Positions 353 to 8,765 of a stretch of DNA of 42,565 nucleotides are shown piece by piece. Each line of letters begins with the position of its first letter. The stretch's first letter is position 1. The position numbers were made by a program, and so were the translations under genes. This stretch comes from Thiohalobacter sp. Its GTDB lineage: Bacteria; Pseudomonadota; Gammaproteobacteria; DSM-19610. The notes below the pieces were generated by a model that worked only from the letters and a program-made list of their open reading frames with translations, searched no databases and was not told the origin of the DNA. The stretch spans positions 1 to 42,565 of the forward strand of contig JALSRI010000175.1 of assembly GCA_026984835.1 (NCBI GenBank), in the 5' to 3' direction.

Positions 353-955
353 TCACTCGGCCGGCGGCGTTTGGTGTTTCTCCTCCCACTGTCGCGCCAG
401 CCATTCACCTTCGGCGACCTCTGAGGCCGACATGCCGGTCGCCAGCCTGCTGCGCGCCGGCATGGCATCCGGGTCTCCCCGCCAGGCCGCCACTGTCCAC
501 CACATATAGGCCAGCACCGGGTCGCGGCGGGTGCCGATGCCTTCGGCGTAGTGATGCCCGAGCCGGTATTGGGCCACCACCACACCTTGTTCCGCCGCCT
601 GGCGCTGCCACCGGAACGCCAGCGCATCGTTCCTCTTCGTTCCGCGGCCGTCGAGGTACAGTTTCGCCAGCCGCAGCTGCGCCGGGCCGTAACCCTGCAG
701 CGCCGCGGCCCGGTACCAGCGGTAGGCGGCCGCGTAGTCGATGGGCCGGCCGACGCCGCCCTCGCAGATCTCGCCCAGGTAGAACTGCGCTGCGGCGTGG
801 CCCTTGAGGGCCTCGACGAGGAATTCGTCGTAGGCCCTGTGGTAGTCGTACAACTCGTTATAAGCACGCAGCGCCGAGTCGAAATCGGCGGCCGCGCGGG
901 GTGCGCCCAGCAAGGCCGCGAGACACGGCAACAGGAGTGCAATCGATCGGATCAT
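353..955 (-). CDS. Secreted Sel1-repeat (SLR/TPR-like) protein
   Basis: The gene encodes about 200 residues with an N-terminal signal peptide (hydrophobic run IALLLPCLAALLG, cleavage probably after PRAAA). At least three Sel1-like repeats follow, recognisable by blocks such as AQFYLGEICEGG, AQLRLAKLYLDGRG and AQYRLGHHYAEGIG, each followed by an A-x-W-x-x-A-A helix. Such solenoids usually serve as periplasmic protein-interaction scaffolds; the partner is unknown. The ATG at 955 was chosen because the signal peptide starts cleanly there. An in-frame ATG at 994 would put charged residues in front and has no Shine-Dalgarno. The gene converges on mnmE (17 bp apart) and diverges from the DsrE-like gene. 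Confidence 0.8.
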   Translation of the reverse strand: MIRSIALLLPCLAALLGAPRAAADFDSALRAYNELYDYHRAYDEFLVEALKGHAAAQFYLGEICEGGVGRPIDYAAAYRWYRAAALQGYGPAQLRLAKLYLDGRGTKRNDALAFRWQRQAAEQGVVVAQYRLGHHYAEGIGTRRDPVLAYMWWTVAAWRGDPDAMPARSRLATGMSASEVAEGEWLARQWEEKHQTPPAE

Positions 956-999
956 GTCACTACCCTGGATGGAAATCCGCAGAAATTTATTCATGCCGG

Positions 1000-1026
1000 G
1001 AATAATTCTGCCATCGCCTGCCTCTA
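1000..1026 (+). promoter_or_regulatory. Candidate ECF-type promoter of the DsrE-porin unit
   Basis: GAATAA (1000-1005), a 17-bp spacer and TCTA (1023-1026) lie 39 bp before the DsrE-like start codon. The same GAATAA-N17-TCTA arrangement occurs upstream of the ECF sigma gene on the minus strand (6769-6743). No good sigma-70 promoter was seen in this short intergenic region. The assignment to the local ECF sigma factor is inference from the shared motif. Confidence 0.4.
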
Positions 1027-1064
1027 CTAGGACACGAATACGACGGAGAAGTGGAGGACTCAGC

Positions 1065-1580
1065 ATGAACCCAATCCTGCGAAGCGCCCTGGGCGCGATC
1101 ACCCTGGCCGTGGCGCTGTCCGGCAGCGGGCCGCTTGTTGCGGAGCCGCTCGACAAGAAGCCGGCACCTTCTCCCGACCTGTTCCACCCCAAACGGGTCA
1201 TGCCACAGCCCGAAGCGCCGGACGACAAGCCGTTTGCAGAACATTTCGTTGTATTCCATATCTCCACGGGTGACGCGTTCGCCCAGAAGCTGGTGCTCAA
1301 CAATGCTCAGAACCTGGCCAACTTCTACGGCCCCGACAAGGTCGTGATCGAAGTCGTCGCCTACGGCCCCGGCCTGCGCGCGCTGTTCCGCGAAAACACC
1401 TATGCCGACCGCATCAAGCGCATGTCCGACCAGGGTATCACCTTCACGGCCTGCGCCAACACCATGAAGGCCATGGGCCGGGATCTGCACAGCCTCAACA
1501 AGGTGGCGCGCGTCGTGCCCGGCGGCGTCGTGCGACTCACCGAGCTTCAGGAGGCCGGCTGGACCTATATCAGACCCTGA
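1065..1580 (+). CDS. Secreted DsrE/DsrF-like protein
   Basis: The 171-residue protein has an N-terminal signal peptide (about residues 1-27, ending near PLVA) and a proline-rich linker. A DsrE-like domain follows from about residue 60, with the VVFHISTGD first strand, the VIEVVAYGPGL strand-turn and the FTACANTM motif. Cys130 in that motif is the only cysteine of the protein; the equivalent cysteine in DsrE-family proteins can carry persulfide. The domain ends with LQEAGWTYIRP, almost the same as the end of the anti-sigma factor encoded at 5435-6184 (LQAGWTYVKV), so the two are paralogous. Location in the periplasm and a sulfane-sulfur or thiol role are inference. ATG 1065 was chosen because GGAGG lies just upstream and the signal peptide starts there. 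A porin gene follows 63 bp downstream, probably in the same transcript. Confidence 0.8.
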   Translation: MNPILRSALGAITLAVALSGSGPLVAEPLDKKPAPSPDLFHPKRVMPQPEAPDDKPFAEHFVVFHISTGDAFAQKLVLNNAQNLANFYGPDKVVIEVVAYGPGLRALFRENTYADRIKRMSDQGITFTACANTMKAMGRDLHSLNKVARVVPGGVVRLTELQEAGWTYIRP

Positions 1581-1643
1581 GCGCAAGGGGCGGCCTGAGA
1601 AACAAACAAGAGACGACACAGATACCACCACCGGGAGGGGATT

Positions 1644-3206
1644 ATGTTCAAGAAACTCCACAGCATGCGCCGCGCGATTCCGCTTGGCACCGCGCTTGCC
1701 CTGGGCCTGGGCGCATCCGCCACCGAGGCCGCCAACTGGTTCAAGCTGCGCGGCACGGAACCGGGCGGCACCGCCCACACACTGCAGGTATGGGGCTTTC
1801 TGCAGCCGACCTACGTCAACGACACCAGCGATGACATCGAAGGCGCTGTCGGTCCCGCCGCCTCCATGAACGGCGACAAGCAGGTGCCCGGCACCGTCCC
1901 GCCCGATCGCACGTCGCGGGAGAGCTTTTTCATGCGCCGGGCCCGGATCGGGATCCGCGGCACCATGATCCCGATAAGCAATGACATCGATTATTTCATC
2001 CTGACGGAATGGGGCCAGAACGGCATAACCCGCGCCGGTGGCGCTGCCCATCTGCTCGATGCCTCCATTACCTTCAACCAGCTGTCGCGCGGCATGGACG
2101 ACGATGGCCTGCAGAACCTGGGCGTTCGCATGCGCATCGGTCAGTTCCTGTTCTCGCAGACTTCACAGGCGCTGTCGCAGTCCACGCCCGGCCGCCGTGT
2201 CCACATTTTCATGCCGGAGGCCACCTTTGCCCACGCCATTGGCCGTTTCACCACCGACAATGGCGTCCACAACTGGCCGGAAGACGAGACCAGCGCCAAT
2301 GGCGCCCGTGATGTCGGCGTCGAGCTGTTCGACTGGGCTGAGTTCAAGGACCCGTTCATGGGCGGCGGGCCGCTGGAATTCACCTATTCCTTCGGTCTCG
2401 GCAACGGCGACGCCATCGGCGAGCTAAACCGTGATGGCAACTTCAAGAAATACTACTGGTTGTCCCTTGCCAAGCTGTGGGACAAGACGCGCGGCCCGCG
2501 GCGCCACGACATGATGATCTATGGCTGGTATCAGGACACCAATGTGCTGTTCAACAACGATATCGACAACGATGGTCGTCCCGACAACCTTGCGGCCCCA
2601 CTGGGCGGCGACCGGCGTCCGCCCAATATTGCGGCCGATCCGGTCAGCTGCGGCAACCGCGTCTGCAAGAATGGCAACGAGAAGGATGAGAAGCAGCAAT
2701 ACTGGGGCTTCGGTTTCGAGTACTTCGACAAGCCATTCGCCAGTCTCGGCCAGATTCGCTTCGAGGCCGAATGGCAGAAGCAGCGCGGCCTGACCTTCGA
2801 CGGTGCGCGCAGCCCCTCGGTGAGGCAGAATGATCTCAACGGTGGATTCGACAGTATCCTGTATGAGCTGGGAGGTGAAAACACGGGCTGGTATGTCGAT
2901 ATCGGACACGACATCAACGGCTATCTCGGTATCAGAAAGCGTACCACGTTCAACGTGCGTTATGATGAATTCCATCGTAACAAGGGCAATGTGTCGCGCG
3001 AGGTCGAATGGAAGACCTGGAGCCTGACTGCCGAATACTTCTTCCACAAGAAGGCACGTGCCACCCTGACCTACCAGTTCCGTAACTTCAATGCCGACGA
3101 CCGCACCGGCGGCTTCAAGACCAACGGCAACGCGGTGCTGGAGCAGATCGACAACCGCATCGGCTTGCAGGTGACCTTCATCTACAAGAACGTGCTGCTC
3201 AGGTAG
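1644..3206 (+). CDS. Outer-membrane porin, phosphate-selective O/P-like
   Basis: The 520-residue protein has a signal peptide (residues 1 to about 29, ending ASATEAA) and then alternating amphipathic stretches typical of a beta-barrel: HTLQVWGFLQPTYV, FFMRRARIGIRG, NDIDYFILTEWG, LNGGFDSILYELGG. The FMRRAR-x-G-x-R-G motif near the N terminus is typical of phosphate-selective porin O/P (OprO/OprP-like) proteins. The barrel ends with LQVTFIYKNVLLR, where the family more often has a terminal Phe. A Cys pair in NRVCKNG and PVSCGN (about residues 335-345) may form a loop disulfide. The substrate cannot be told from sequence. It lies downstream of the DsrE-like gene and before a strong hairpin terminator. 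SD GGGAGGGG precedes ATG 1644. Confidence 0.75.
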   Translation: MFKKLHSMRRAIPLGTALALGLGASATEAANWFKLRGTEPGGTAHTLQVWGFLQPTYVNDTSDDIEGAVGPAASMNGDKQVPGTVPPDRTSRESFFMRRARIGIRGTMIPISNDIDYFILTEWGQNGITRAGGAAHLLDASITFNQLSRGMDDDGLQNLGVRMRIGQFLFSQTSQALSQSTPGRRVHIFMPEATFAHAIGRFTTDNGVHNWPEDETSANGARDVGVELFDWAEFKDPFMGGGPLEFTYSFGLGNGDAIGELNRDGNFKKYYWLSLAKLWDKTRGPRRHDMMIYGWYQDTNVLFNNDIDNDGRPDNLAAPLGGDRRPPNIAADPVSCGNRVCKNGNEKDEKQQYWGFGFEYFDKPFASLGQIRFEAEWQKQRGLTFDGARSPSVRQNDLNGGFDSILYELGGENTGWYVDIGHDINGYLGIRKRTTFNVRYDEFHRNKGNVSREVEWKTWSLTAEYFFHKKARATLTYQFRNFNADDRTGGFKTNGNAVLEQIDNRIGLQVTFIYKNVLLR

Positions 3207-3232
3207 CAGTCGCAGGGAACGATGCGCCAGGT

Positions 3233-3260
3233 GGCAGGGGGTCCCATGGGACCCCCTGCC
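3233..3260 (+). terminator. Perfect 13-bp hairpin after the porin gene
   Basis: GGCAGGGGGTCCC (3233-3245) and its exact complement (3248-3260) are separated by two bases and followed by GTTTGCGTT. The stem is very stable but the T-tract is poor, so it may act as a terminator or as a 3' stabilising hairpin for the DsrE-porin transcript. Confidence 0.6.
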
Positions 3261-3308
3261 GTTTGCGTTACACTGCATGCCTTCACGGGAAGTCCGAAGG
3301 ATCCGGGT

Positions 3309-4550
3309 ATGAACAGGCTATCGGTATCGTTGCTGGTTTATGCGGCAGGCGTTCTCGCACTGCTGCTGGTCCAGGGCTGCGGCACGACGCGCCGGGAAGC
3401 ACGCCAGGAAGTGCAGCGCGGTGTCTATGTTCCCGATGCAGACAGTGTCTTCGTCGCGAACCGGTCGAAGGTGAGCCGTTCTCCGGACGGGGCCCGAATC
3501 GCCATCATCGGAGAGGGGGCGGAGCCCTCATGGAAGATCGTTCGCCGCGCGCTCGCGCGCCTCGGCATTCCCTACGAAGTCCACGATGGCCCCAACCCCT
3601 GGCTGCTCACCGGTTGGGTGATCTGGTCCTACGATCCCGACGGGGACCGCGGGCGCAGCAAGCGGCCCGGCTTTGGGGTGTCCGGCACCGATGAACGCCA
3701 CCGCTTCCGTTTTTCCAAGGATCCGGCCGGCACCGACATCCTGGTCACCGACGCCGCCCGGCAGCGGGAGGTGGATATAGCGCCGGACAGCGAATACAGC
3801 TGGCTCGAATGGCAGGACGACACGCCCAGTCCCGCCGCCGCTTTCGCATTTGCGCGGCGTCTGCAGGGCGACATCGAAGCCGTGCTTTCACTCGTATCGA
3901 CAGAGTCTGCCTTGCAGAAGGCCGGCCGGGAGCCGGCGGCACAACAGCCCCCGGCGCCCGCAGCGGTTGCGCCGACCGGTACGGCGAAGCGTCCTGAAAC
4001 TCCGGCCAAGGTACAAGCGCCCGCCATCGTCGTTCCTCCCGCCGCACCGGTTCCCGGGAGTGGGGCTGCGCCACCGCCGGCCACCGTGGCGAGCGCGCCG
4101 CGCAAGAACCTGCCGGCGGTGGCTGCGGGCGCGCGTACTACCCTGTTGCTCGATGCGCCGCCGGCGCGGGTCTGGGAGGCGCTGCTGCGCGCGCTGCAGG
4201 ACGCGAAGGTCGAGCTGCAGACCCTCGATCGCAGCCAGCTGCTCGTCACCACCGACTGGGTCGACGCCAGCTACGATCGCAAGAACCAGCAGCTGATATT
4301 CCGGTCCAACGAACCGGGTCGCTGGGCATTCGACCTGCGTGGTCACGGACTCCAGCGCCACCGTTTCCAGCTGTTGCTCATTCCGGTGGGCGAAGGACGC
4401 ACCCTGCTGCGGGCCTACCACGTGGGATTCCAGGAGGAGGTCGATCTGACGCCGGATTCGTCGCAGACATTGCTGCAGTGGGCGGACCGCCGGACCGACC
4501 CCGCCATTGCAGCGGCATTCCTGCGGTACCTCAGGATCGTCCCGCGCTGA
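3309..4550 (+). CDS. BamC/NlpB-like lipoprotein with two helix-grip domains
   Basis: The 413-residue lipoprotein starts with a signal peptide and lipobox LVQGC (Cys24), so it should be acylated and anchored in a membrane. Residues about 55-195 form one BamC-like domain (ARIAIIGEGAEPSWKIVRRAL through the AFAFARRLQ helix). A Pro/Ala-rich linker of roughly 90 residues follows. A second copy covers about 280-413 (ARTTLLLDAPPARVWEALLRAL, LLVTTDWVDA, HRFQLLLIPVGEGRTLLRAYH). This matches the NlpB/DapX architecture, in which BamC is an accessory lipoprotein of the BAM outer-membrane assembly machine. Classical bamC sits beside dapA, which is absent here, so this is either a relocated or a paralogous copy. 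ATG 3309 was chosen because it gives the lipoprotein signal. Confidence 0.72.
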   Translation: MNRLSVSLLVYAAGVLALLLVQGCGTTRREARQEVQRGVYVPDADSVFVANRSKVSRSPDGARIAIIGEGAEPSWKIVRRALARLGIPYEVHDGPNPWLLTGWVIWSYDPDGDRGRSKRPGFGVSGTDERHRFRFSKDPAGTDILVTDAARQREVDIAPDSEYSWLEWQDDTPSPAAAFAFARRLQGDIEAVLSLVSTESALQKAGREPAAQQPPAPAAVAPTGTAKRPETPAKVQAPAIVVPPAAPVPGSGAAPPPATVASAPRKNLPAVAAGARTTLLLDAPPARVWEALLRALQDAKVELQTLDRSQLLVTTDWVDASYDRKNQQLIFRSNEPGRWAFDLRGHGLQRHRFQLLLIPVGEGRTLLRAYHVGFQEEVDLTPDSSQTLLQWADRRTDPAIAAAFLRYLRIVPR

Positions 4551-4577
4551 AGCGGGCAGGCGAAACAGGAGGCAGTG

Positions 4578-4901
4578 ATGAAAAACCCAACCAGGAGCGG
4601 ACCCGCGTTCGCAGCCGGCCTGCTGCTGGCCGGCGCGGTGAACCTGCCCGCGGTGGCCCAGGCGGGCGGCAACCCGTTTGCGTTTACCGATCTGGCCGCC
4701 AGCAACAGGCTGGCGCAGGCAGACGACGGGGAACGCGACCAGAAGATGGACAAGGAAGGCAAGTGTGGCGGCAAGTCGGCCAGGGAGGCGGTCTGCGGCA
4801 TCTACCAGGTAGGCAGCGGCCACAAGGACCCGGCCAGGGTAAAGGATGGCAAGTGCGGCGGCCACAGGGTCGTCGAGGCACTGTGTGGTGGAGACAGGTA
4901 A
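4578..4901 (+). CDS. HvfA-like secreted Cys peptide (possible RiPP metallophore or bufferin precursor)
   Basis: The 107-residue peptide starts with a signal sequence (about residues 1-29, cleaved near AVAQA). The NPFAFTDLAASNRLAQA segment resembles the conserved NPFA-x-x-x-L...LA block that opens mature HvfA-family peptides. Two six-residue motifs follow, EGKCGG (60-65) and DGKCGG (90-95), plus two further Cys-Gly pairs, AVCG (Cys73) and ALCGG (Cys103). In the family, EGKCG cysteines are modified by a DUF692 (MNIO) enzyme with a DUF2063 partner to give metal-binding groups. Neither partner is encoded in this window, so this is an orphan or an unmodified relative. A strong AGGAGG (4567-4572) selects ATG 4578 over the in-frame GTG at 4575. 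It lies between the BamC-like gene and a DUF302 gene, 22 bp from the latter. Confidence 0.62.
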   Translation: MKNPTRSGPAFAAGLLLAGAVNLPAVAQAGGNPFAFTDLAASNRLAQADDGERDQKMDKEGKCGGKSAREAVCGIYQVGSGHKDPARVKDGKCGGHRVVEALCGGDR

Positions 4902-4923
4902 CAGGTAACCCAAGGAGACAAGC

Positions 4924-5370
4924 ATGAAAAGGATGGTGATGGTGATACTGCTGCTGGGCCTGGGCCCGGCCTGGGGCGCGGAGGGTCTGTTGCAGGTGAA
5001 GAGCCCCCATGGCGTGAGCGAGACGCTCGACCGCTTCGAACAGGCGGTCCGCAACAAGGGCATGACCGTGTTCACGCGCATCGACCATGCTGCCGGTGCG
5101 GCGCGGGTGGGCAAGGTGCTGCGGCCGACCGAGCTGCTCATCTTCGGCAACCCCAACATCGGCACCCTGCTGATGCAGAGCAGGCAGACGGCGGCCATCG
5201 ACCTGCCCATGAAAGCCCTGGCCTGGAAGGATGCGCAAGGCCAGGTCTGGCTGGCCTGGAACGACCCGGCCTGGATCGCCAGGCGCCACGGTATCAGCGA
5301 TCGCGACGCCGTGGTGGCGAAGATGCAGAAGGCGCTGCGGGCCTTTGGGGCGGCTGCCACCAAGCCGTAG
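4924..5370 (+). CDS. Secreted DUF302 protein
   Basis: The 148-residue protein has a short signal peptide (residues 1 to about 18, ending PAWGA) followed by a single DUF302 domain covering nearly all the rest. The family hallmarks are the N-terminal strand-helix block (SPHGVSETLDRFEQAVRNKG), the strand VFTRIDHAAGA, the conserved LRPTELLIFGNPNIGTLLM, and the C-terminal WLAWNDPAWIARRHGI. The biochemical function of DUF302 is not known; it is found widely, often near stress or sulfur genes. AAGGAGA lies before the ATG. The gene follows the HvfA-like peptide by 22 bp and is probably co-transcribed with it. It ends 64 bp from the convergent anti-sigma gene. Confidence 0.82.
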   Translation: MKRMVMVILLLGLGPAWGAEGLLQVKSPHGVSETLDRFEQAVRNKGMTVFTRIDHAAGAARVGKVLRPTELLIFGNPNIGTLLMQSRQTAAIDLPMKALAWKDAQGQVWLAWNDPAWIARRHGISDRDAVVAKMQKALRAFGAAATKP

Positions 5371-5434
5371 GGCGAAGTGAAAAAGGCTGTTGTTTCAGAA
5401 GGGTCGGCAGGTTGTTTCGGTAGGCCACACGCGC

Positions 5435-6184
5435 TCAAGTCTCCGGCAGCGCTTCCACCTTGACATAGGTCCAGCCTGCCTGCAGGCGGTCGACGATGTG
5501 ATCGATGGCCGTCTTGTCGGTATCGACGTTGCTGATGAAGCGCGGGTGTTCGCCACGCCGGAACAGGTTGCGGATGCCGTTGGCACAGGCGATGAAGTGC
5601 ACGTTGTCGTGACGCCGTATCATGTCGGCCACCTGTTTCTCGAAGGGCGACACGCCGGCGCGCATCAGGTCCAGGCCGCCCGCGTTGGCCACCACCTCGA
5701 CCTGGCTGCCCGGTTTGTCGTGTTCCTTCAGAAAGGTCTCTATGTAGTCCAGGGCGGCGGCAAACTGGCGCGGGTCGGATTTGCTGATGTGCAGCACCAC
5801 CCGTTCACCGGCCTGCCGTGCGGCCATCGCCGGCGGGGTGGCGCCGCTCTTCTGGCTGCAATAATAGCCCAGCATGCCGCTGCCCAGGCCGACGGCCAGC
5901 AAGGTGACAGTGGCCGCCAGGCTCTTCCACAACGAGCGGCGAGTGCCATGCACGGGTGCCCCGACGTCCCGGTTGGCCGGCAGCAGCCGCGTCGGTGCCC
6001 TGGCGTCGGCGAACGCCAGGTTCATCAGGTCCTTGGCGCGGCGCAGTTCATAGACCTGGTCGCGGACGTCGGGATCCCTTTCCATGGTGGCCAGGATGGC
6101 CTCGCAGCCCTGGGCATCCAGCTGGCCGTCGACGAAGGCGCTCAGCAGTTGCGGGTCCGGATTTTCATATGTCTTCTTGATCAT
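5435..6184 (-). CDS. Membrane anti-sigma factor with periplasmic DsrE-like domain
   Basis: The protein has 249 residues and three parts. Residues about 10-60 (PQLLSAFVDGQLDAQGC, then the helical MERDPDVRDQVYELRRA) look like the cytoplasmic anti-sigma domain of ECF partners, without the HxxxCxxC zinc motif. Residues about 85-107 are one transmembrane helix (LWKSLAATVTLLAVGLGSGM). Residues about 125-249 form a DsrE-like domain with VVLHISKSD, VEVVANAGGLDL and FIACANG (Cys200), ending LQAGWTYVKV. It is paralogous to the secreted protein at 1065-1580. The gene starts a few bases after the sigma gene stops, so the two are surely an operon. The likely role, inferred, is to hold the sigma factor until Cys200 or a ligand of the DsrE domain is altered in the periplasm. 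Cys109 just outside the membrane could take part. Confidence 0.75.
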   Translation of the reverse strand: MIKKTYENPDPQLLSAFVDGQLDAQGCEAILATMERDPDVRDQVYELRRAKDLMNLAFADARAPTRLLPANRDVGAPVHGTRRSLWKSLAATVTLLAVGLGSGMLGYYCSQKSGATPPAMAARQAGERVVLHISKSDPRQFAAALDYIETFLKEHDKPGSQVEVVANAGGLDLMRAGVSPFEKQVADMIRRHDNVHFIACANGIRNLFRRGEHPRFISNVDTDKTAIDHIVDRLQAGWTYVKVEALPET

Positions 6185-6188
6185 GCGG

Positions 6189-6734
6189 CTACTTCACTAT
6201 CCGAATATGTTTACCCCGAGGCGTGGCATCGGCCGTGTGCTGCTCGAGCTGACCCAGGAGGTTCTTGCGCGCCCGGTGCAGCCGGCTCATCACCGTGCCG
6301 ATCGGGATGCTCAGTGTCTCCGCCACCTCGCAATAGGAGAAGCCTTCCAGGTCGACCAGGGACAGGATCTGCCGCTGGTCGTCGGGCAGGCGCGCCACGG
6401 CACAGCGTACGCGGGCGACGATTTCCATTTCCTGGCAGTTGCCGAGCGGGCCGTTCGCCTCGCACTGCTGCTCGTCGTCCAGTTCCGTGTGCGGCTTGCG
6501 GCGGCGCAGGTACTGGTGCCAGTTGTTGTTCAGGATGCTGTACAACCAGGCGAACAACCGGTTTTCATCCCGCAGCTGGTGGCTGTTGACCAGGCCGGAG
6601 GCCAGTGTCTCCTGTACCAGGTCGTCGGCCAGCATTTCGTCGCCGCACCACACCAGGGCCACCCGGAACAACCGGTCCCGCGACTCCGCGATTCTCCGCC
6701 TCAGCGGCTGATTGGTTTCATTTTTTGCGCGCAT
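6189..6734 (-). CDS. ECF-family RNA polymerase sigma factor
   Basis: The 181-residue protein has the two-domain ECF layout. Region 2 spans about residues 17-80 (RDRLFRVALVWC, then ADDLVQETL and the FAWLYSILNNNW helix). Region 4 spans about 110-162 (ARLPDDQRQILSLVDLEGFSY, then the recognition helix IPIGTVMSRLHRARKNLL). The ATG at 6734 is preferred; another at 6743 would add three residues, and neither has a clear SD. The upstream extension of the frame overlaps mnmG and is not coding. The gene is immediately followed by the anti-sigma gene. If the candidate promoter at 6743-6769 is real, the transcript would begin almost at the start codon. Confidence 0.88.
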   Translation of the reverse strand: MRAKNETNQPLRRRIAESRDRLFRVALVWCGDEMLADDLVQETLASGLVNSHQLRDENRLFAWLYSILNNNWHQYLRRRKPHTELDDEQQCEANGPLGNCQEMEIVARVRCAVARLPDDQRQILSLVDLEGFSYCEVAETLSIPIGTVMSRLHRARKNLLGQLEQHTADATPRGKHIRIVK

Positions 6735-6742
6735 TACCCACA

Positions 6743-6769
6743 TAGATGCAGCAACCCACCGGTTTATTC
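6743..6769 (-). promoter_or_regulatory. Candidate autoregulatory ECF promoter
   Basis: Read on the minus strand, GAATAA (6769-6764), 17 bp and TCTA (6746-6743) repeat the arrangement found before the DsrE-like gene at 1000-1026. ECF operons are commonly autoregulated. The difficulty is position: the transcript would start only a few bases from ATG 6734 and so be nearly leaderless. Confidence 0.3.
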
Positions 6770-6872
6770 TCCCGATCGGCGATATCGGCCGGGAAGCGCG
6801 GTCCCCGAAATGGCCTCGATTGCCGCAAAACGGTAGAATATCATCCCTTTGCCGGAATTTTTCGGGCCGGAC

Positions 6873-8765
6873 ATGGATTACGGGCAATCTTACGATGTCA
6901 TCGTCGTCGGCGGCGGTCACGCCGGCACCGAGGCCGCGCTGGCCGCGGCGCGCGCCGGTGCCCGCACCCTGCTGCTGACCCACAACCTCGACACCCTGGG
7001 CCAGATGAGCTGCAACCCGGCCATCGGCGGCATCGGCAAGGGCCACCTGGTGAAGGAGATCGACGCTCTGGGCGGGGTCATGGCGCGGGCGGCCGATGCC
7101 GCCGGCATCCAGTTCCGGCGCCTCAACGTCAGCAAGGGGCCGGCCGTGCGCGCCACCCGCTGCCAGGCCGACCGCCAGCTCTACCGCCGCGCCATCCGCG
7201 CCGCGCTGGAGAACCAGCCCGGCCTGACCCTGTTCCAGCAGGCGGTGGACGACCTCGTGGTCGAGGGCGGCCGGGTGGCCGGCGTGGTCACGGCCATGGG
7301 GCTGCGTTTTGGCGCCCGCGCCGTGGTGCTGACCGTCGGCACCTTCCTGGGCGGCCGCATCCACGTCGGCCTGACCAGCCAGCCGGGCGGCCGCGCCGGC
7401 GATCCGCCCGCCAACGCCCTGTCTGAGCGCCTGCGCGCCCTGCCCCTGCGGGTCGAGCGCCTCAAGACCGGCACGCCGCCGCGCATCGACGGCCGCAGCA
7501 TCGACTATGCGCGCCTGGCCGAGCAGCCCGGCGACGCGCCGCCGCCGAGCTTCTCCTTCCTGGCCACGGGCGACGAGCACCCGCGCCAGCTGAGCTGCCA
7601 CATCGCCCATACGACGGAACGCACCCACGACATCATCCGCGCCGGCCTGGACCGCTCGCCGCTGTATGCCGGCGTCATCGAGGGCACCGGGCCGCGCTAC
7701 TGCCCCTCCATCGAGGACAAGGTGGTGCGCTTCGCCGACAAGAGCTCACACCAGATCTTCGTCGAGCCCGAGGGGCTGGACACCCACGAGGTCTACCCCA
7801 ACGGCATCTCCACCAGCCTGCCCTTCGACGTGCAGCTCGAACTGGTGCGCTCCCTGCCCGGCTTCGAACAGGCCCACATCACGCGCCCCGGCTACGCCAT
7901 CGAGTACGACTTCTTCGACCCGCGCGACCTGCGCGCCTCGCTGGAGACGAAATTCATCGACGGCCTGTTCTTCGCCGGCCAGATCAACGGCACCACCGGC
8001 TACGAGGAAGCCGCCGCCCAGGGCCTGCTGGCCGGCGTCAACGCCGCTTTGCAGGTGCAGGGCCGCGAGCCGTGGCGGCCGGGCCGCGACCAGGCCTACC
8101 TGGGCGTGCTGGTCGACGACCTGGTGACCCGCGGCACCAGCGAGCCCTACCGCATGTTCACCAGCCGCGCCGAGTACCGGCTGCTGCTGCGCGAGGACAA
8201 CGCCGACCTGCGGCTGACCCCGCTCGGGCGCGACCTGGGACTGGTCGATGACGCACGTTGGGCGGTTTTTTGCAGAAAACGTGATGCGATTGAACGCGAA
8301 CAGCAGCGATTGCGCGATATCTGGATTCGGCCGGGCAGCGCTGCCGCCGTGCACCTGGAACAGCGCCACGACCAGCAGCTGGCCCAGGAGCAGCGCGCTC
8401 TGGACCTGCTCAGGCGGCCCGGCATCGGCTACGCCGAGCTGCTGGCGCTGGCCGGTACCGGCCCGGCCTGCGAGGATCCGAAAGTGGCCGAGCAGGTCGA
8501 GATCCAGGCCCGCTACCACGGCTACATCGAGCGCCAGCGCGACGAGATCGAGCGCCAGCGTCGCCATCAGGACAAGCCACTGCCGGCCGACCTCGACTAC
8601 GGCGCGATACGCGGCCTGTCCGCCGAAGTGCGCGAGAAGCTGGCCGCCACCCGCCCCGAGACCGTCGGCCAGGCGGCCCGCATTCCCGGCGTCACACCGG
8701 CGGCGGTGTCGCTGTTGCTGGTGCACCTGAAAAAGAGCGGCCAGGCGGCCCGCAAGCGCGCGTGA
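6873..8765 (+). CDS. mnmG: MnmG (GidA) tRNA uridine-5-carboxymethylaminomethyl modification enzyme
   Basis: The FAD-dependent partner of MnmE installs the carboxymethylaminomethyl group on U34 of tRNAs. The product has 630 residues, the usual length. The dinucleotide-binding GGGHAG motif is at residues 13-18, followed by [17 protein letters not shown], the [12 protein letters not shown] motif and the [14 protein letters not shown] block, all typical of the family. ATG 6873 was chosen over an in-frame TTG at 6849 because the protein then starts, as in relatives, just before the FAD strand. The gene diverges from the ECF sigma gene and its end overlaps rsmG by 4 bp. Confidence 0.97.

Follow-up and report, generated by a model that had tools for sequence, protein, structure and literature searches.

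ECF control of sulfur oxidation is already known, from the ECF26 group and from the sox genes of Arcobacter butzleri. The ECF26 sigma factors RpoE4 of Sinorhizobium meliloti and SigE of Starkeya novella respond to sulfite derived from thiosulfate or taurine and control sulfite oxidation; their promoters have GGAAT at −35 and CGTC at −10, autoregulation has been reported for RpoE4, and the sulfite that members of the group answer to arises within the cell, a signal other than an external persulfide (PMC3511301, PMC6527743). In A. butzleri the sox genes are activated by sigma-2 and repressed by sigma-7 (PMC3445524). The DsrE3A/TusA thiosulfate-transfer proteins are enzymatic carriers of sulfur, not regulators, and in them a DsrE-type cysteine carries thiosulfate obtained from tetrathionate. 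The cysteines of a Metallosphaera DsrE protein take up thiosulfate when the protein meets tetrathionate; it does not react with polysulfide, thiosulfate or sulfite, and DsrE2B was unreactive with all compounds tested (PMC4175335).

What appears to be new at the locus described here is a putative DsrE sensor, which forms part of a membrane anti-sigma factor encoded in a window of 42,565 nucleotides (the whole stretch of DNA that was analysed) from a Thiohalobacter genome. A search of open-licence papers for DsrE together with anti-sigma factors returned no relevant report of such a sensor. In its general plan the protein resembles RseA and MucA, single-pass membrane anti-sigma factors with N-terminal helices that bind sigma there; the outer domain is unrelated and the stimulus is another one, misfolded outer-membrane proteins being what RseA and MucA respond to. 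To our knowledge, the way in which gammaproteobacteria sense extracytoplasmic thiosulfate, tetrathionate and polysulfide for the induction of sox genes is poorly explained.

Results

The sigma/anti-sigma pair

The window pair is an ECF sigma factor with a membrane anti-sigma factor, and its architecture is real and conserved (Table 1). The sigma factor matches Sigma70_r4_2 (8e-17) and Sigma70_r2 (5.9e-10) in Pfam, both above the cut-offs; with regions 2 and 4 only, and 181 residues where about 180 are expected, it belongs to group IV (ECF). The two genes lie on one strand, 4 bp apart, and the coordinates of the operon given in the preliminary description (5435–6734) were correct. Two further pairs of this kind bring the number in the window genome to three. 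The anti-sigma gene is linked and the sigma gene has an upstream motif in common with the putative targets, as in ECF systems; autoregulation is predicted.

Table 1. Features of the window, with positions counted from its first nucleotide
Feature	Position	Strand	Remarks
Putative DsrE-porin promoter	999..1026	+	GGAATAA-N16-CTCTA; de novo dyad and genome scan
Stand-alone exported DsrE	1065..1580	+	171 aa; sequence indicates a signal peptide; cysteine within TACAN
OprO/P-type outer-membrane porin	1644..3206	+	520 aa; L108 orthologue matches Porin_O_P (4.2e-6)
NlpB/BamC-like lipoprotein	3222..4550	+	up to 442 aa; PF06804 at its cut-off; also in L108 operon
Small exported Cys-Gly-rich protein	4575..4901	+	108 aa; KCGGK..VCG..KCGG..LCGG
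DUF302 protein, exported	4924..5370	+	148 aa; Pfam 2.6e-18; recurrent neighbour
Anti-sigma factor gene, DsrE-type outer domain	5435..6184	−	249 aa
DsrE-like domain, MTH1491/COG1416-type	5459..5806	−	residues 127–242; profile and Foldseek
Cys200 codon, invariant DsrE-domain cysteine	5585..5587	−	alignment of relatives
Single membrane helix	5849..5932	−	residues 85–112 (28 residues, AF2); positive N-flank RRSLWK
Cytoplasmic anti-sigma domain	6014..6157	−	residues 10–57; three helices (AF2 model); no HxxxCxxC
ECF sigma factor gene	6189..6734	−	181 aa; ATG at 6734; regions 2 and 4
Putative sigma-operon promoter	6743..6770	−	AGAATAA-N16-ATCTA; de novo dyad and genome scan

The anti-sigma factor had been parsed, from the letters of the sequence, into an anti-sigma-like domain, one membrane helix and a DsrE-like domain, and structure prediction, profiles and Foldseek all bear this out. 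The AF2 model, for which 33 relatives were aligned (mean pLDDT 86), has helices over residues 11–57, one helix at 85–112 and an alpha/beta domain at 128–242. Hydropathy peaks at residues 88–106 in the window protein and at the same place in its relatives, and the positive flank followed by the helix suggests that the N-terminus lies inside and the C-terminus outside. The reading of the C-terminal half had been made to depend on a match to DsrE folds, and such a match was found: residues 127–242 as a single sequence hit MTH1491 (1l1s) with E=1.2e-6 (phmmer against PDB), the family profile hits 1l1s with E=1.6e-19 and ST0148 with 8.8e-8, and the best Foldseek matches of the outer domain are all DsrE-type (1l1s, TMt 0.88; 2pd2, 0.83; 3pnx, prob 1.00). 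Proteins of the MTH1491/ST0148 type, DsrE/DsrF-like and presumably equivalent to COG1416, agree with the outer domain in fold, sequence and cysteine position; they stand alone, whereas here the domain shares one chain with an anti-sigma domain and follows the membrane helix. Pfam and NCBIfam did not recognise DsrE in the outer part of the window protein, and Pfam DsrE at permissive E matched 5/33 relatives (best 4.1e-5); these libraries alone would wrongly have spoken against the DsrE part.

The profile check proposed for both halves gave weak matches for the N-terminal part (MucA/RseA N-domains at E ~0.1 with the family profile), and at permissive E zf-HC2 was found in 22/33 relatives and RseA_N in 3/33. 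A short N-terminal helical domain ahead of the membrane helix in the AF2 model, together with these weak MucA/RseA matches, would place the protein in class I of the anti-sigma factors. It is not a zinc anti-sigma (ZAS) factor: the HxxxCxxC motif is absent and Cys27 is the sole cysteine of the N-terminal domain.

An invariant cysteine in the outer domain

Cys200, within A199-C200-A201-N202, is the only cysteine of the DsrE domain and aligns with the cysteine of MTH1491. The single cysteine ascribed earlier to this domain is thereby confirmed; elsewhere the protein carries two more, Cys27 and Cys109. Cys200 is kept in all 33 sequences of alignment A1, which is notable because mean column identity there is just 38%, and in 65/65 fusions with a readable column. 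The latter set was not selected for cysteine, the 30 A2-scan loci picked partly by a Cys-containing pattern having been excluded from the count. On the strength of this invariance (65/65) the idea of a vestigial DsrE domain was rejected.

The outer domain with its invariant cysteine is a natural candidate for the receiver, and we infer that chemical modification of Cys200 would be the trigger. A thionate or persulfide adduct is plausible; a periplasmic cysteine at this position could instead sit in a disulfide or read redox. Given the tetrathionate-only reactivity of the Metallosphaera protein and the inertness of DsrE2B, DsrE chemistry is not automatically transferable to the anti-sigma factor.

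Distribution of the fusion

The survey of genomes for the same fusion, which the preliminary description had proposed, found it to recur far beyond chance. It is present in 19 of the 20 genomes of the order, and a match was found in 76 of 369 sampled gammaproteobacterial genomes (47 families), about 65 of which span both domains. A sigma gene adjoins essentially every complete copy. With full-length homologues beside sigma genes in 19/20 order genomes and ~65/369 class genomes, a one-genome oddity was rejected. The occurrence of soxB follows that of the fusion: soxB is present in 74/76 genomes with a match and in 78/293 without (p=5e-32, kinship ignored). Among named genomes, those nearest to the window genome are for the most part MAGs of Thiogranum and Thiohalobacter, both genera of sulfur oxidisers.

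In a phylum-wide sample, full-length fusions were confined to the class (the window genome, G585 and G636). A search of plasmids gave just distant DsrE matches, in Azospirillum, and next to sigma genes on alphaproteobacterial plasmids the anti-sigma match stops before the DsrE part. One second copy of the anti-sigma factor (L122 8454–9560, G008:C161) occupies a single frame of 371 aa that overlaps with a sigma fragment of 119 aa; this pair looks frameshifted or decaying.

A neighbouring operon for an exported DsrE and a porin

Across families, a recurrent unit is found near orthologues of the pair, an exported DsrE gene followed by a porin gene and often by DUF302. In most cases the unit and the sigma gene are divergent; in the window the unit (1065–5370, plus strand) is convergent with the anti-sigma gene. 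The exported DsrE scores 28.0 bits against a Pfam DsrE cut-off of 22.7, and its cysteine, the same as that of the anti-sigma outer domain, is invariant in 12 orthologues. The 108-aa Cys-Gly-rich protein (4575–4901) has no match in Pfam or NCBIfam and stands beside DUF302 in L060 and L108 also. When 48 pairs were concatenated and placed in a tree, two main clades emerged; members of each have DsrE-porin neighbours, so that the link looks old. Some pairs, at groEL- and c10-type loci, have no local exported DsrE. At L102 (G185:C3:91000–103000), soxB, two DsrE genes, a porin gene and a sigma/anti-sigma pair lie within ~10 kb.

This linkage bears on the main rival to a sensor reading, namely that the outer domain is a docking site, forming mixed oligomers with the exported DsrE so that the anti-sigma factor senses, as feedback, how much of that protein is present or how far it is loaded. 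The two DsrE domains are homologous and the exported one is conserved beside the pair, and DsrE3A, like DsrE-type proteins, forms homotrimers (PMC4175335). However, the cysteine of the sensor domain is invariant, which goes beyond what docking needs, and the pairs at groEL- and c10-type loci would have no partner encoded nearby; we regard docking as unlikely.

A common promoter motif

When spaced words were counted de novo in front of 82 sigma and DsrE genes, a single dyad dominated, AATAA-N17-TCTA, which was present in 32 of these regions against 0.2 in shuffled sequences. The motif common to the sigma genes and the DsrE operon is GGAATAA-N16-[ACG]TCTA. In the window (6734–6770) the sigma start codon lies ~9 bases past the predicted −10, and the mRNA may be nearly leaderless.

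A scan of the window genome with the pattern GAATAAN{16,17}TCT gave 11 matches, against 0 for the reversed pattern used as a control. Each of the three sigma operons has a match, as do the DsrE operon and the start of soxB (C93:13678); SoxB was identified at 880 bits, and SoxY was also identified. Further matches lie ahead of a solute-binding protein gene and of a gene for a small exported protein. One match, at C197, was taken as chance, being antisense inside lpxD (a gene named by sight). In genome G003 the scan gave 25 matches against 11 for the control, several of them inside genes, and the weak G003 matches were not used.

Two of the sites deserve separate mention. At L167 1863–2939 (G000:C221), a ModA/CysP-like solute-binding gene lies 99 bases behind a perfect GGAATAA-N16-CTCTA, and it is possible that the protein binds a sulfur compound. 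Beside the second pair, at L164 (G000:C89) 508–8544, are a GldA/GldF-like ABC operon and a gene for a 540-aa exported protein with companions; the ABC-transporter operon and the 540-aa protein gene each have their own GGAATAA-type promoter.

The motif at sox genes

The strict motif was sought within 400 bases upstream of soxB and soxX in 59 sox regions. Of 39 relatives (members of the order, or class genomes bearing a match), 15 have GGAATAA-N16-GTCT upstream of soxB, soxX or both, whereas none of 20 soxB genomes that lack the fusion does (p=6e-4). Leaving out G017 and G018, in which the full fusion was not found, gives 13/37 (p=0.0015), and the reversed-motif control gives 1/39; the strict motif is absent from 24/39 sox regions of relatives. 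The distance from motif to soxB is typically 73–80 bases, and G003 has the motif ahead of soxX as well as ahead of soxB. In G174 and G284 (L242, L245) the genes for sigma, anti-sigma, soxX, soxY, soxA and soxB follow one another on one strand, the pair heading a soxXYZAB operon with the motif 59 bases before the sigma gene and a DsrE gene divergent.

The −10 element of the sox promoters is GTCT, as at the promoter of the groEL-side paralogue, and the window type is ATCTA or CTCTA. Because the −10 types differ in this way, the window sigma would be expected to act mainly on the DsrE-porin operon, with the sox genes served by a sister sigma. Most likely, to judge from the motifs, the window pair drives the DsrE-porin operon; the assignment of sigma factors to promoters among the three paralogues is tentative, since the motif variants overlap.

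The GTCT-type motif is strikingly similar to that of ECF26, though it was derived without knowledge of the ECF26 consensus. The sox promoters and several sigma promoters read GGAATAA-N15/16-GTCT, mostly after C, a likeness at promoter level; the window promoters differ, with ATCTA and CTCTA at −10. The fit to GGAAT/CGTC, recognised by sigma factors that answer sulfite-generating compounds, raises the alternative that sulfite or another toxic oxyanion is the signal, held as an S-sulfonate on the DsrE cysteine and calling up a detoxification response. The predicted targets here are instead sox and the DsrE-porin genes, and no sulfite dehydrogenase is among the own-genome motif targets; we think this quite unlikely. 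If the pair instead answered envelope stress, as RseA and MucA do, the DsrE domain would be a structural cap and the porin and groEL context a sign of envelope folding, in keeping with the porin in the target operon, the weak RseA/MucA likeness and the one paralogue type beside groEL. The motif at sox genes, the sigma-anti-sox operons, the near-exclusive occurrence with soxB and the invariant cysteine make it very improbable.

The preliminary description had suggested a link to sulfur, and that link has gained support from the DsrE-porin operon, the motif common with sox genes, the sigma-anti-sox operons and the co-occurrence with soxB; the sensing chemistry is still something that we infer. 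The evidence that the pair belongs to sulfur oxidation is independent and genomic, and the link is much stronger than a first reading of the sequence could show.

Discussion

Domain architecture, fold, cysteine invariance, promoter motif, gene linkage and soxB co-occurrence were computed here, and the reading that we consider probable is that of an ECF switch which reads oxidisable periplasmic sulfur compounds on behalf of the DsrE-porin operon and, through sister pairs, the sox genes. The N-terminal domain of the anti-sigma factor would hold sigma at the inner membrane. The outer DsrE domain would take up a sulfur group on Cys200, either a persulfide or a thiosulfonate from tetrathionate/thiosulfate chemistry, and the exported DsrE of the cluster may hand over this group or form an assembly with the domain. 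This event would inactivate the anti-sigma factor and free sigma, by proteolysis or by a conformational change. From GGAATAA-N16-[AC]TCTA promoters the freed sigma would then transcribe both its own operon and the one that encodes the exported DsrE together with the porin, the lipoprotein, the small Cys protein and DUF302, and sister pairs with GGAATAA-N16-GTCT would drive the sox genes for thiosulfate oxidation. Sulfane sulfur may be the wrong ligand, if the analogy with ECF26 sigma factors, which answer to sulfite, is followed. Sigma binding, cysteine chemistry, ligand, release step and the pairing of sigma with promoter are predictions of this reading. More tentatively, we suggest the possibility of a family of trans-envelope sensors in which modification of the DsrE cysteine by thionates or persulfides would free sigma factors for the sox genes and for a DsrE-porin operon of uptake or trafficking.

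The comparison with ECF26 extends to the sigma gene beside an anti-sigma gene and to sulfur targets, known to be induced by sulfur compounds for ECF26 and predicted here. The known ECF26 targets are sulfite-oxidising enzymes, in contrast to sox and DsrE-porin, and a DsrE domain is not mentioned for their anti-sigma factors (PMC6527743, PMC3511301). Sigma-2 and sigma-7 of A. butzleri, likened here by description, also exert ECF control over sox, in another phylum, and neither a signal nor an anti-sigma architecture is described there (PMC3445524).

The family provides a concrete candidate for a sulfur sensor: a membrane protein whose outer cysteine is invariant, whose promoter is defined and whose predicted regulon is small, and which some genomes join to soxXYZAB in one operon. 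It also brings in the exported DsrE and the porin with a candidate role in uptake or trafficking. If the proposal is true, this would be, as far as we know, the first DsrE domain to act as a receiver of signals rather than a carrier of sulfur. ECF control of sulfur oxidation would then extend beyond the detoxification of sulfite, and gammaproteobacterial sulfur oxidisers would possess a dedicated sensor for sulfur outside the cell.
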